Shown piece by piece: positions 14,067-18,928 of a stretch of 52,752 nucleotides of DNA. Position 1 is the stretch's first letter, and every line of letters begins with the position of its first letter. The position numbers and the translations under genes are program-made. The notes under the pieces are model-generated. The model saw only the letters and a list, made by a program, of their open reading frames with translations, was not told the origin of the DNA and ran no database searches. The stretch covers positions 1 to 52,752 of the forward strand of contig CAJWGB010000010.1 in assembly GCA_913031625.1 (NCBI GenBank), given 5' to 3'. This DNA is from an uncultured Planctomycetaceae bacterium. GTDB lineage: Bacteria > Planctomycetota > Planctomycetia > Planctomycetales > Planctomycetaceae.

Positions 14067-14766
14067 TGAGGGGTCCTGCCAGTTCAGGGGGCGATTGTTG
14101 AATTTGCAGAGTTCAGTCTACTAACCGTAAGTGGCAAATAGTGCAACTGCCGTTCCCATTATGAGACTTCTGTGCCGCTCTGAGTTGTTCACATAAGTCA
14201 ATAATTTGTCAGAAGTTACGAATAGCGTTCGGACAATCATTGTCGTGCGGCAACCGTAACCGTGTGCGTTTTGAAACACGTGACTGATTGCGACACAGTT
14301 GTGTCATTTTGATCCGTGGGTCGTCACTGTGACGGCGCACTGACACGGCTGTGCGTAAGGGTTGAAGTGTGAGTTGCGTCAGATCTCAGGTTTTAGGGTT
14401 TTGGTCAATTCTTCATGTGTGTGAATACTGGTTCATTTCGGGCGTTTTTCTGAACGTTTTTAGGCAGAAAGTGTCTTAAAGCTGCTGGATATCACGGTAT
14501 CTCCTTGATGGAGGGTGAATTCGGCCTACGGGAAACGGTTGTACGGGCGCAGTCGTCGGATGCAGGAATTACAAGATCCAGGCGTTGTGTGATGCCGTTT
14601 ATAAACATGAGAGAAAGTCCATTTGGCTGGAAATCGCGTGCCCACGAAGGGCTACAGGTCATCGGAAGGGGGCATGATCAAGACGGTTATGTCGCGTCCG
14701 GCACGAACTTTGCCTCAGGTTTGTGCTGACAGCCGGAGTCTTCCGGCAGGGTGAAGGAGGTTCAAA
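14067..14766. promoter_or_regulatory. 700-bp leader/regulatory region upstream of the sigma-factor gene
   Basis: No convincing gene is present; a 74-codon frame at 14505-14729 lacks a good start signal. The stretch 14100-14500 is noticeably more T/A-rich than its surroundings. Between 14275 and 14350 there is a run of short dyads built on GTGTC/GTCAC half-sites: CACGTG, GACAC-AGTT-GTGTC (14292-14305), GTCAC-T-GTGAC (14323-14333) and a further ACTGACACGGCTGTG. A hairpin GCCGGA-GTCT-TCCGGC (14732-14747) ends seven bases before the AAGGAGG ribosome-binding site at 14754-14760. Together this looks like a regulated promoter with a structured leader, but no -35/-10 pair could be fixed. Confidence 0.45.
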
Positions 14767-16422
14767 ATGTCACGATACCGAAACGAACGTATTCGCGAGC
14801 TTGCTGAACAGCAGGTTCGGTTTGCCCCCCAGGCAGTCAAAACACGCCAGATCTCCCAGGCCGAGGATTTTCTGTTCTCGGTGAAGGGCGGACTTGAGTA
14901 CCGCTTTGGCGAAGTGTGCTTTGCTGTGACTGGGTACCGGCCAGAAACCGACGTCGTCGTGAAGGGCCGAGATCTCGCTCATGATCTCCGGTGTCTTGTG
15001 GAGGATCTGTCCGGTAGTCTCAATCAGCCGATTTCGGAGCTCGGTGAGCCAGCGCTGACAGTAAAAGAAGTGAGTGAGCTGTTCAGCGTTTCGGCCAAAA
15101 CGGTCGATCGGTGGCGTGATCGTGGCCTTCCCAGTCGCCGCATGAATGTGGGTGGGCGTCTGAGAGTTGTAATTCCACAAAGCATCCTCAATCGGTTTGT
15201 CGCTGATCATCGAGATGAGATTGATCGCGGCAGCAGCTTTCGGCAGATGACGCAGGAAGAGCGACAGGAGGTGATTTTGGCCGCCCGCGAGTTGGCGGCG
15301 GAAGGGCTTGGGTTAACGGAGGTCAGTCGGCGAATCGGTGAGCGGTTCAGTCGAGCGACTGAGACGATCCGTTACACGCTTCGTGATTTTGACAAGGCTC
15401 ACCCGGAAAACGCCATTTTTCCACGTGTTACAGCTCAGGTTTCGGGTGAGCATCAATCGCTCATATTTGACCTGCACGCTCAGGGCGTGGTTATTGAGGA
15501 CCTCGCTCGGCGTTTCTCTCGCACTAAGTCCTCCATTCAGTCGATCCTCGCAGATGTCCGCGTCCGTCGACTCAGGGCGATGCCGGTTGAGTACATGGAT
15601 TCCGAGGAATTCCGAATGGATGACGCCGAGTCTACCATTCTTGGCGAGCCGCCTGCCTACGACGAAAAGTCCTCCGTGCGTGTTCCGAAAGGGCTACCCG
15701 CCTATCTGGCAGAGCTGTACAAGGTGCCGCTGCTGAACAAGCCACAGGAGCAGTACTACTTTCGGAAAATGAATTACCTCAAATTCCGGGCCGCGGAGCT
15801 CCAGAAGGAGCTGAATGACGGCAGGGCGAATGCCCGAGTGGCACGCCGGATGGAGGCGCTGCTGGATGATGCGAATAGGGTGAAAAACCTGCTGACTCGC
15901 TCGAATCTCAGGCTGGTTGTGTCGATCGCGAAACGGCACCTGAAGCCAGGGGTGAACTTTTTTGAGCTGGTCAGCGACGGCAATATGTCGTTGATCCGCG
16001 CCATCGAGAAGTTTGACTACGCTCGAGGCAACAAGTTTTCGACATACGCGTCGTGGGCCATCATGAAGAATTATGCTCGTAGTGTGCCCGCTGAGCACAC
16101 TCGGCTCGACCGATTTCGTACCGGGTACGAGGAGGTCTTCTACGATTCGCAGGATGGTCGCGGCAATGCTTTTGCTGACGAGTTGGTCAATAAGGCTCAG
16201 CGGGCTGCCATTATGGAGATCCTCGAAGAGCTGAATGGCCGGGAGCGAAAGGTGATTTCGTACCGCTTCGGGCTCGCCAAAGGTACTGAGCCGGAGACGC
16301 TTGAGCAGGTCGGCAACAGGCTGGGGGTGACCAAGGAACGCGTTCGTCAGATTGAGGTCCGCACCCTTGAGAAGCTGCGCAGGATAGCTCGAGTTAAAGG
16401 GGTGGATATCCCCGGGATCTAA
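14767..16422 (+). CDS. sigma-70 family factor fused to N-terminal helix-turn-helix domains
   Basis: A 551-residue protein with a strong AAGGAGG site 6 nt before the ATG. Residues 96-146 form an excisionase/MerR-like HTH (LTVKEVSELFSVSAKTVDRWRD...GRLRVV). Residues ~158-206 (MTQEERQEVILAARELAAEGLG..., RFSRATETIRYTLRD) and ~228-270 (VIEDLARRFSRTKSSIQSIL) look like further HTH modules. Sigma regions follow: 1.2-like at ~308-335, region 2 at ~372-455 (NLRLVVSIAKRH, FFELVSDGNMSLIRAIEKFDYARGNKFSTYASW) and region 4 at ~485-543 (GVTKERVRQIEVRTLEKL). Only ~35 residues join regions 2 and 4, so region 3 is essentially absent. It should direct RNA polymerase to a specific promoter set and may bind DNA through the extra HTH modules. 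It sits just upstream of the tRNA-tuf-rpoBC block. Confidence 0.9.
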   Translation: MSRYRNERIRELAEQQVRFAPQAVKTRQISQAEDFLFSVKGGLEYRFGEVCFAVTGYRPETDVVVKGRDLAHDLRCLVEDLSGSLNQPISELGEPALTVKEVSELFSVSAKTVDRWRDRGLPSRRMNVGGRLRVVIPQSILNRFVADHRDEIDRGSSFRQMTQEERQEVILAARELAAEGLGLTEVSRRIGERFSRATETIRYTLRDFDKAHPENAIFPRVTAQVSGEHQSLIFDLHAQGVVIEDLARRFSRTKSSIQSILADVRVRRLRAMPVEYMDSEEFRMDDAESTILGEPPAYDEKSSVRVPKGLPAYLAELYKVPLLNKPQEQYYFRKMNYLKFRAAELQKELNDGRANARVARRMEALLDDANRVKNLLTRSNLRLVVSIAKRHLKPGVNFFELVSDGNMSLIRAIEKFDYARGNKFSTYASWAIMKNYARSVPAEHTRLDRFRTGYEEVFYDSQDGRGNAFADELVNKAQRAAIMEILEELNGRERKVISYRFGLAKGTEPETLEQVGNRLGVTKERVRQIEVRTLEKLRRIARVKGVDIPGI

Positions 16423-16754: not shown

Positions 16755-16827
<73 letters not shown>

Positions 16828-16915
16828 TTCGCATTTTAGTTGAGGATTGTTGGTTGCCAGAGTCTGATTGCCTACATTCCGCAGCGGAATAGTCTCCGTT
16901 GTGTCACACACAGAG

Positions 16916-16998
16916 GGGGGTGTTCCAGAGCGGCCAAATGGGCCAGACTGTAAATCTGGTGGCGTACGCCTTCGCAGGTTCGAATCCTGCCGCCCCCA
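16916..16998 (+). tRNA. tRNA-Tyr (anticodon GUA)
   Basis: An 83-nt class II tRNA with a long variable arm. The acceptor GGGGGTG pairs with CGCCCCC. The anticodon stem CCAGA/TCTGG encloses CTGTAAA, anticodon GTA. The T-loop is GGTTCGAATCC. The discriminator is A, with no encoded CCA. Confidence 0.96.
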
Positions 16999-17049
16999 AT
17001 CGTGAGTAGCTGTAAGCGAGAGGGTCTGGCTTGGAAAGTCAAGGTTTTT

Positions 17050-17120
17050 GCGGGTGTAGTTCAATGGTAGAACTCCAGCCTTCCAAGCTGGTCGTGAGGG
17101 TTCGATTCCCTTCACCCGCT
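17050..17120 (+). tRNA. tRNA-Gly (anticodon UCC)
   Basis: A 71-nt tRNA. The acceptor GCGGGTG pairs with CACCCGC. The anticodon stem CCAGC/GCTGG encloses CTTCCAA, anticodon TCC. The T-loop is GGTTCGATTCC. The discriminator is T; CCA is not encoded. Confidence 0.96.
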
Positions 17121-17142
17121 CTCTTCCAGGAGCCAATTAATT

Positions 17143-17217
<75 letters not shown>

Positions 17218-17342
17218 GGGTATGGTTGGCGTGGTTTGGTGTCCCGTGTGGGGTGCCAGGTTTGTGTTTCTTGGTTGTGTTTTCTTTACGTTTTTGTTGG
17301 TGCTGACTGTGAAAGGGCAGTTGGCGTCATCTGGAGTTTGAG

Positions 17343-18539
17343 ATGGCAAAAGCAGTTTTTGAGCGGACAAAGCCTCACGTTAACGTGGGAACGATCGGTC
17401 ATATTGACCATGGTAAGACCACAACTACGGCCGCAATCCTTGCTGTTCAGGCAGCCAAGGGGCTGGGTGAGGTGAAGAGTTACGCAGATATCGCCAAGGG
17501 TGGTACTGTTCGTGACGAGACCAAGACGGTGACCATCGCTGCGAGCCACGTGGAGTATGAAACTCCCAATCGTCACTATGCTCACATCGACTGCCCGGGT
17601 CACGCTGACTTTATTAAGAACATGATCACTGGTGCCGCTCAGATGGACGGTGCCATTTTGGTTGTTGCTGCAGATAGTGGTCCGATGCCACAGACGAAAG
17701 AGCATATTCTGCTTGCTCGTCAGGTGGATGTTCCGGCTCTGGTTGTGTTTATGAACAAGGTTGACCTTGTTGATGACCCGGACCTGATCGAGCTGGTTGA
17801 AGAGGATATTCGTGACCAGCTGAACAAGTACGGCTTCCCTGGGGATGAGATTCCCATCATTCACGGGAATGCAAAGGGTGCTCTGGATAATCCGGATGAT
17901 GAGGCGTTCAGTGAGTGTGTCACGAAGCTGATGGAGGCTCTGGATAGTTACATTCCTCAGCCTGAGCGAGATCAGGACAAGCCATTCCTGATGGCGGTCG
18001 AGGATGTCTTCTCAATTGAAGGTCGTGGTACTGTTGCGACTGGCCGTATTGAGCAGGGTATCGTTCATGTTGGTGACAAGGTAGAGATTCTGGGTCTGCG
18101 AGACACTCAGGAGACGACCTGTACTGGTGTTGAGATGTTCCAGAAGACTCTGGAGGAGGGGCAGGCTGGTGACAATGTTGGTCTTCTGCTTCGTGGTTTG
18201 AAGAAAGACGACGTTCAGCGTGGTCAGGTTCTTGCTGCACCAGGCTCTATTCAGCCTCACACCAAGTTCGAGGGTGAGGTTTATGTTCTGGACAAAGATG
18301 AGGGTGGTCGTCACACGCCATTCTTCTCAGGCTACCGTCCTCAGTTCTACTTCCGTACGACTGACGTGACTGGAACGACAACTCTGCTCGGTGGGGCTGA
18401 GATGTGTACTCCGGGTGACAATGTCAAGGTGGAGGTTACTCTTGGTAAGCCGATTGCTATGGAAGACGGTAGCCGCTTCGCGATTCGTGAGGGTGGTCGA
18501 ACTGTTGGTTCCGGCGTTGTGACCAAGATTGTCGAGTAG
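17343..18539 (+). CDS. tuf: elongation factor Tu
   Basis: A 398-residue EF-Tu, the GTPase that delivers aminoacyl-tRNA to the ribosome. The G1 loop GHIDHGKT (residues 19-26), the G3 DCPGHADF (83-90) and the G4 NKVD are intact. Domains 2 and 3 are well conserved ([34 protein letters not shown]). Two parts are odd. The switch I block, normally ARGITINTSHVEY, reads [13 protein letters not shown] (about residues 60-72), so the near-invariant RG is replaced by KT while the Mg-binding Thr64 remains. The G5 motif reads GNAKGAL instead of GSALKAL. I believe other planctomycete EF-Tu proteins share this divergence. The gene follows four tRNAs, not fusA, and ends at a hairpin terminator (18570-18611). 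Confidence 0.97.
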
Positions 18540-18569
18540 TTCACCCTCGTTTTTAAGGGTTGATGGATC

Positions 18570-18611
18570 AACTGCCTGTTTGTCGTTTGGTGGACAGGCA
18601 GTTTTCTGTTT
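18570..18611 (+). terminator. intrinsic terminator after tuf
   Basis: AACTGCCTGT (18570-18579) and ACAGGCAGTT (18594-18603) form a perfect 10-bp stem with a 14-nt loop, followed by TTCTGTTT. Being ahead of rpmG-secE-nusG, it may be partial, setting tuf level above the downstream genes. Confidence 0.75.
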
Positions 18612-18636
18612 GCTGGTTTTTTGAAAGGGCGGTTTC

Positions 18637-18789
18637 GTGCGAGAGTATGTTTGGCTGGAATGCACGGAGACTGGTCTTCGCAACTATCGAGTGATCAAGG
18701 AAACCCGCGGTACCGAGCGGCTTGAGTTGATGAAGTATTGTCCTAAGCTTCGTCGTCATACGCTGCACAAGGAATCGCGTAAGAAGTAA
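18637..18789 (+). CDS. rpmG: ribosomal protein bL33
   Basis: A 50-residue large-subunit protein starting at GTG, with GAAAGGG about 8 nt upstream. The sequence begins MREYVWLECTETG and ends RRHTLHKESRKK. Zinc-type L33 proteins have two CxxC pairs. Here each pair keeps only its first Cys (CTET and CPKL), so the zinc site is half lost and probably does not bind metal in the usual way. The order tuf-rpmG-tRNA-Trp-secE-nusG is a common bacterial arrangement, which supports the call. Confidence 0.93.
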   Translation: MREYVWLECTETGLRNYRVIKETRGTERLELMKYCPKLRRHTLHKESRKK

Positions 18790-18799
18790 CTGGTCCTCT

Positions 18800-18872
<73 letters not shown>

Positions 18873-18928
18873 TTTCTGCGTTGTGCTGCAGTCAGGCGTT
18901 GTGATCCTCAAGGCGGAAAGTGGGAGAG

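Follow-up and report, generated by a model that had tools for sequence, protein, structure and literature searches.

A planctomycete sigma-70-type protein with an N-terminal helix-turn-helix arm and a short linker in place of region 3

The gene examined lies next to a tRNA-tuf-rpoBC-ribosomal block in an uncultured member of the Planctomycetaceae, in a window (the whole stretch of DNA that was analysed) of 52,752 nucleotides. By sequence, its 551-amino-acid product is a member of the sigma-70 family, as regions 2 and 4 both score above the curated cut-offs. These regions are preceded by an arm of three helix-turn-helix (HTH) modules and are joined by a linker too short for region 3. The protein may well be a planctomycete alternative sigma-70 factor with a DNA-binding arm of its own. 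A sigma factor and a transcription factor are ordinarily two distinct proteins; if this reading is true, a class-wide and mostly single-copy fusion would have given a polymerase subunit upstream recognition while dispensing with region 3. Searches of open-licence papers, PMC8567305, PMC11119718 and PMC8999054 among them, yielded neither an account of such an architecture nor a functional study; the initial annotation had known of no such study either.

Domain layout, predicted structure and the missing region 3

The gene and its parts, all on the + strand, are as follows (window coordinates).

14767..16422, +: whole gene of the HTH-sigma fusion, 551 amino acids, stop codon included
14767..15042, +: N-terminal domain, residues 1-92 (helices and short strands in the predicted model)
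15052..15207, +: HTH1, winged, excisionase/MerR/BldC-like, residues 96-147 (Pfam HTH_17; weak fold matches)
15253..15399, +: HTH2, tri-helical, residues 163-211 (helices of the predicted model)
15445..15579, +: HTH3, tri-helical, residues 227-271 (HTH_38, HTH_23 and Mor matches in orthologs; fold)
15691..15801, +: sigma region 1.2, residues 309-345 (aligned with principal sigma factors; mean conservation 0.78)
15874..16092, +: sigma region 2, residues 370-442 (Pfam; hhalign 99.8 to planctomycete region 2)
16093..16197, +: 35-residue linker replacing region 3 (model confidence below 50 at residues 440-467)
16198..16401, +: sigma region 4, residues 478-545 (Pfam; hhalign 99.7)

In the sigma half, the Pfam model Sigma70_r2 matched residues 377-432 (50.5 bits, cut-off 24) and Sigma70_r4 residues 486-538 (60.8 bits, cut-off 24.1), and alignment with solved principal sigma factors held from residue 306 onward, region 1.2 included, in agreement with the three sigma regions first proposed. 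Region 2 was the best-conserved part within the class (mean 0.81). In the family consensus, built from 22 members and compared with 32 rows that have region 3, FSTY and one tryptophan were retained in region 2 and TKERxRQ in region 4, the second tryptophan of the usual region 2 pair being an alanine. By sequence, regions 2 and 4 keep the motifs for binding of the core polymerase and of promoter DNA.

In the arm, HTH_17 matched residues 97-147 with 28.3 bits (cut-off 27), where an excisionase/MerR-like HTH had been expected at residues 96-146; in several orthologs its score fell below the cut-off. HTH2 and HTH3, the two further HTH-like segments initially noticed, were weak in the 551-amino-acid protein alone and clear in orthologs. 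Indeed, at E<=0.01, HTH_17 and HTH_23 matched all N-terminal halves examined (50/50 each, although these two models may land on either HTH) and HTH_38 matched 41/50, scoring above its cut-off at residues 225-262 of ortholog L012. The N-terminal domain (residues 1-92) had no Pfam family at E<=1. It was kept in distant family members and replaced in the divergent subfamily L071-L087, which has a different N-terminus and retains the three HTHs and the sigma half.

The AlphaFold2 model (alignment A1, 60 orthologs) had a mean pLDDT of 84.3 and a pTM of 0.50, and its helix patterns were those of three HTHs. Its N-terminal domain spanned residues 7-92 and was followed by the winged HTH1 (96-147) and the tri-helical HTH2 (163-211) and HTH3 (227-271); confidence was low at residues 440-467, between regions 2 and 4. 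Modelled alone, the arm reached a pLDDT of 89.6. The N-terminal segments are thus predicted HTH folds, and Pfam, the model and the ortholog matches agree on a sigma-70 factor fused to several HTH modules. Regions 1.2-2 superposed on the sigma-70 structure 6k4y with Z 14.5 and rmsd 2.7 over 135 residues; for the entire sigma half, Z rose up to 15.7 with an rmsd of 22.8 over 218 residues, owing to a different placement of regions 2 and 4. The fold of HTH1 resembled, by weak matches, BldC (6ama/6amk) and a phage small terminase subunit (7lwr); for BldC, the probability was 0.99 and the TM 0.67 by target, but E was 0.23. The tri-helical fold predicted for HTH3 is a common one (best Z 8.2, rmsd 1.5, 52 residues). 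A Foldseek search with the arm gave no match at E 0.001, the best E being 0.2. That the arm is a built-in transcription factor, which would recognise DNA upstream of the core promoter, is a reasonable hypothesis.

The idea that HTH2 and HTH3 are displaced sigma regions 3 and 4 was not supported, as profile comparison gave 8.8 % for HTH2 with region 3 and 6.3 % for HTH3 with region 4, and structural alignments across both HTHs had an rmsd of about 20. A general HTH likeness was visible in the same kind of comparison, namely 63.5 percent for HTH1 with region 4, 41.4 percent for HTH1 with region 3, 54.1 percent for HTH2 with the family's own region 4, 79-82 percent for HTH2 with HTH3 and 82-84 percent for HTH1 with HTH3. 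Similarly, Sigma70_r4 also matched 10/50 N-terminal halves at E<=0.01, so that the idea keeps a small probability.

As to region 3, Sigma70_r3 had no match in the 551-amino-acid protein at E<=1 (Pfam), nor at this gene of the family in 15 of 16 genomes searched, namely those with a listed gene place (G421, the sixteenth, has none). The gap between regions 2 and 4 was 35-37 residues in 34/34 rows of the arm-bearing family in the class (32 distinct), as against 96-99 residues in 34/36 planctomycete sigma rows (32 of 34 distinct proteins), and the segment between both regions had one length in 81/81 aligned sequences. A region 3 hidden in the linker was not found either, the hhalign probability with the region 3 profile being 0.1, compared with 99.7 and 99.8 for the positive controls. 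The architecture first noticed is thereby confirmed and exceeds chance. The absence of region 3 was noticed correctly at the outset but is not unique, since it is shared with short paralogs: the remaining two of the 36 rows are L002 (G000 C55) and L003 (G000 C224), two sigma factors of about 300 amino acids from the same genome, without arm and with gaps of 39 and 41 residues.

When a tree was built from regions 2 and 4, the region-3-less proteins split from the rest with a local support of 0.975, indicating that the missing region 3 marks a clade; the tree rests on a short alignment of planctomycete sequences only (80 tips, without ECF factors), holds two genes twice (L005/L142 and L002/L147) and leaves out L125 and L126. 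The arm-bearing protein is the widespread member of this clade, the short arm-less members, including relatives of L002, occurring, among 60 genomes, mainly in family f1. The genome carrying the window gene contained 43 sigma region 2 matches, 42 of them over the cut-off, and region 3 in only three proteins, one of them borderline, the large remaining set consisting of probable ECF-type factors.

Upstream elements and control of the gene

Four features precede the coding sequence.

14452..14476, +: copy of an ECF-like element, GAAC-N16-TGTCT (CGTCT in relatives)
14638..14754, +: four-hairpin RNA leader, supported by covariation, own genus only
14699..14714, +: sigma-54-like -24/-12 element CGGCACGAACTTTGCC, within hairpin 3 in this genus
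14753..14763, +: ribosome-binding site, AAGGAGG

Many Planctomycetaceae copies of the gene were preceded by GTTCGCATGCGAAC-TTTTT-N-GCGTC-N8-CGTA, in which the spacer from GAAC to CGTC measures 16-17 nt and CGTA lies about 8 nt beyond. GAAC and CGTC at such a distance are ECF-like. The copy in the window deviates, with TGTC instead of CGTC and without the palindrome, the latter being absent throughout its genus; in other Planctomycetaceae, GAAC is the end of the palindrome GTTCGCATGCGAAC. The element is a putative ECF-like promoter overlaid by a palindrome. After rows had been dropped (104 to 90) and upstreams sharing a 60-mer had been merged (90 to 82), the core pattern with TTT was present in 34/90 and 30/82 upstreams, respectively, and absent in 52/82 distinct ones; first-order Markov shuffles predicted 0.07, orthologs being non-independent even once merged and start codons being partly chosen by alignment. 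The reverse strand had 0/82, off-register spacers were at chance (3/82, 2.6 expected), and the pattern occurred before 2/233 other genes of the same loci. CGTA followed the core pattern in 23/30 cases. The upstream 10 nt plus GAAC had on average 8.3/14 palindromic positions, compared with 3.9 in shuffled sequences, the palindrome being perfect in 5/30 upstreams. In one pattern search, of loci centred on the gene, all 30 contexts preceded this gene, that of L030 at a distance of 638 nt. In addition, the upstreams of L046, L047, L049, L050, L052, L063 and L068 (Pirellulales) seemed, by eye, to share a motif around CGCAGGGAA.

The strict pattern was also sought genome-wide in 19 genomes, with 45 matches compared to 28 in a reversed control; 9/45 lay before this gene. 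Thirty of the 45 were examined as loci, of which 7 preceded this gene and 23 lay elsewhere. None of these 23 carried the full element and 21 overlapped an open frame, so that no wider regulon of the element was found among the matches examined.

If the protein is indeed an alternative sigma factor with a DNA-binding arm, this dedicated element provides a concrete candidate for its DNA target. The arm would dock the holoenzyme at the upstream palindromic DNA, which would compensate for the lost region 3, while the linker may thread the active-site cleft, as it does in ECF sigma factors, where it is required for transcription (PMC6411747). The protein would then act at few promoters, its own included. 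A one-component, self-regulating sigma factor, uniting a reader of an upstream site and a reader of the promoter in one chain and served by a composite site before its own gene that both halves would recognise, is a tentative extension of this reading, and on the whole a doubtful one. Several points argue against the preferred explanation. Region 4.2 resembles that of RpoD, which reads TTGACA and not GAAC. The element was found almost only in the Planctomycetaceae and the arm is conserved throughout the class, suggesting that the arm may read something else. The RpoD likeness, and a palindrome less widely distributed than the arm, also weigh against self-regulation. The core pattern is missing from 52/82 distinct upstreams, the window copy deviates, and 18/397 genomes of the class have no arm match. 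Finally, with 43 region 2 matches in the genome, the element could be driven by an ECF factor.

This last point leads to the possibility, an unlikely one though deserving attention, that the protein is a sigma factor whose gene is transcribed from its promoter by an ECF factor; the palindrome would then belong to an unrelated repressor, and the arm would serve for protein contacts or other targets. The ECF-like spacing and the supply of region 2 proteins in the genome are consistent with this, as is the lack of even a loose version of the pattern before the short region-3-less paralogs (0/17). Against it, further genes in the regulon of an ECF factor should also be preceded by the full element, which was the case for none of the 23 matches examined elsewhere.

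The RNA leader lies about 160 nt downstream of the ECF-like element and would hence be transcribed from it. In the own genus (8 genomes), it comprised 34 pairs, 11 of which were changed on both sides, with 95.6 percent of cells paired; as this alignment of only 8 related sequences also served to derive the structure, these pair counts lean towards it. In each of five measures, 0/500 shuffles equalled the observed value, and the values were far lower when the structure was slid. The alignment contained 50 G-U and 3 A-C, an excess pointing to an RNA of the sense strand, and the window strand folded better than 198/200 shuffles (z -2.7). No Rfam family matched the leader, apart from one chance match on the other strand (12.8 bits, cut-off 80). 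Outside the own genus, none was found in 69 sources (L104, E 0.7, being a chance match), and the five matches below E 1e-19 were the own-genus records underlying the model.

Sigma-54-like sites (GG-N10-GC) with a score of at least 10, by weights not fitted to these upstreams, occurred in 27/87 upstreams and, after merging of shared 60-mers (97 rows to 87, then 79), in 25/79, 20 of them outside the own genus. By chance, 2.4 were expected; the reverse strand had 1/79 and other genes 2/233. It is accordingly conceivable, if improbable, that sigma-54 controls the gene, which would then be the second step of a sigma-54 cascade. Besides this enrichment, the single rpoN copy found in each of 22/22 genomes is compatible with such a cascade, and sigma-70/32 genes (COG0568) are among sigma-54 targets in general, this gene not being named in the part of PMC12316311 seen. 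However, the relatives are non-independent, 54/79 upstreams have no site, and the site of the own genus sits inside a covarying hairpin, implying a start further upstream.

Distribution of the arm and decay of the sigma half

The protein family appears restricted to planctomycetes as far as the scan of genome contigs reached, in line with the initial annotation: among the best 80 of 143 relatives, 78 had planctomycete titles and two were unlabelled bacterial MAGs. A profile of the HTH trio matched 379/397 genomes of the class, mostly once per genome. The 18/397 genomes without a match indicate that the gene is not indispensable to the class, although the misses may be overstated, only 8 candidates having been scored per genome. 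Ten of the 18 belong to genus g270, of which twelve genomes were without a convincing match of the arm (in ten there was none, and the two marginal ones are counted among the 379); loss of the arm is likely there, or else its divergence beyond the profile. The taxonomic survey extended further into the phylum, with matches in 92/392 genomes for a narrow profile; a broader profile raised this to 112/392, largely by weak matches in many of the added genomes.

Outside the class, 20 of the 52 matches from the narrow-profile scan were inspected (L186 being counted among them and absent from alignments A4 and A5). The arm was conserved throughout, and both sigma regions were recognisable in 7/20 members and not in 13/20. 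All five members of family f67 (L179, L182, L192, L193 and L196) ended without region 4, and in eight members from families f7, f89 and f96 region 2 was unrecognised (E 0.44 or no match) and region 4 weak. An alignment of 30 rows (11 from the class, 19 distant) contained five invariant columns, all within the arm, with L338, A342 and D417 of the sigma half nearly invariant. The conservation of the arm while the sigma half decays suggests a separate role for the arm; in distant lineages, the decayed sigma half may have left mainly the arm, as a regulator. If true, these decaying halves document, as a natural series, the passage of a sigma factor into a regulator.

The same data bear on a further alternative, namely that the protein is mainly a DNA-binding regulator throughout, whose sigma half serves as an anchor on RNA polymerase or as a competitor of other sigma factors and not as an initiator. 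This is the least probable of the alternatives weighed here. The preservation of the arm in all 20 distant members, with both sigma regions left in just 7, and the location of the five invariant columns would fit such a regulator. In the class, by contrast, region 2 is the best-conserved part, its promoter-melting and core-binding motifs are intact, and three columns of the sigma half are nearly invariant.

Relation to known systems and genomic neighbourhood

As an alternative sigma factor with an arm, the protein would combine traits of several known groups. Like ECF (group 4) factors, it has no region 3 but a short variable linker between regions 2 and 4, an ECF-like element before the gene, and a match to the superfamily model TIGR02937 (92.0 bits, cut-off 42.9), which is a broad model; unlike them, it has a region 1.2, RpoD-like regions 2 and 4, a length of about 550 amino acids and an N-terminal HTH arm. 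Other fused domains are known for non-canonical ECF factors, as reviewed in PMC8999054. With group 1-3 factors (RpoD, RpoS and SigF types), it shares regions 1.2, 2 and 4, the first two superposing on 6k4y, but it differs by the lack of region 3 and the replaced tryptophan. In sequence, HTH1 is like BldC and excisionase/MerR-like HTH proteins, whose fold it may also share by prediction, although it is here joined to two further HTHs and a sigma factor. The paralogs L002 and L003 share the short gap and the side of the tree with the arm-bearing proteins, from which they differ by their small size, the missing arm and, in related short paralogs, the missing element. MzaA, the sigma factor of the anti-phage MZA system, was the best partial NCBIfam match (154.5 bits), but this score is far under the cut-off of 800 and the match is limited to two sigma stretches.

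Downstream of the gene lies a block of translation and transcription genes.

16755..18873, +: genes for tRNA-Thr, tRNA-Tyr, tRNA-Gly and tRNA-Thr, tuf and tRNA-Trp; then secE and nusG

In the L008-L070 loci that extend 3 kb or more beyond the gene, tuf was found on the same strand within 4 kb in 16/47, spread over several orders, and was absent in 31/47, which makes the adjacency old but dispensable; it was found in 0/12 eligible loci of the divergent subfamily L071-L087. The order tRNA-tuf-secE-nusG was mostly the same in the 16 loci, L063 being without one tRNA-Thr. A link to growth control had been proposed from this position. The adjacency is real, but the link is weak.

As for expression and essentiality in other planctomycetes, PMC2754498 reports that RB12251 of R. 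baltica (567 amino acids, pI 9.4) is repressed, as ribosomal genes are, by heat, cold and salt. RB12251 may be the ortholog, but its identity is doubtful: besides the ortholog (557 amino acids, pI 9.34), a related genome contains three other sigma factors of similar length or pI (520-566 amino acids, pI 9.15-9.72). In transposon sequencing of Planctopirus limnophila, the sigma factor passage seen in PMC10632474 names the housekeeping one.
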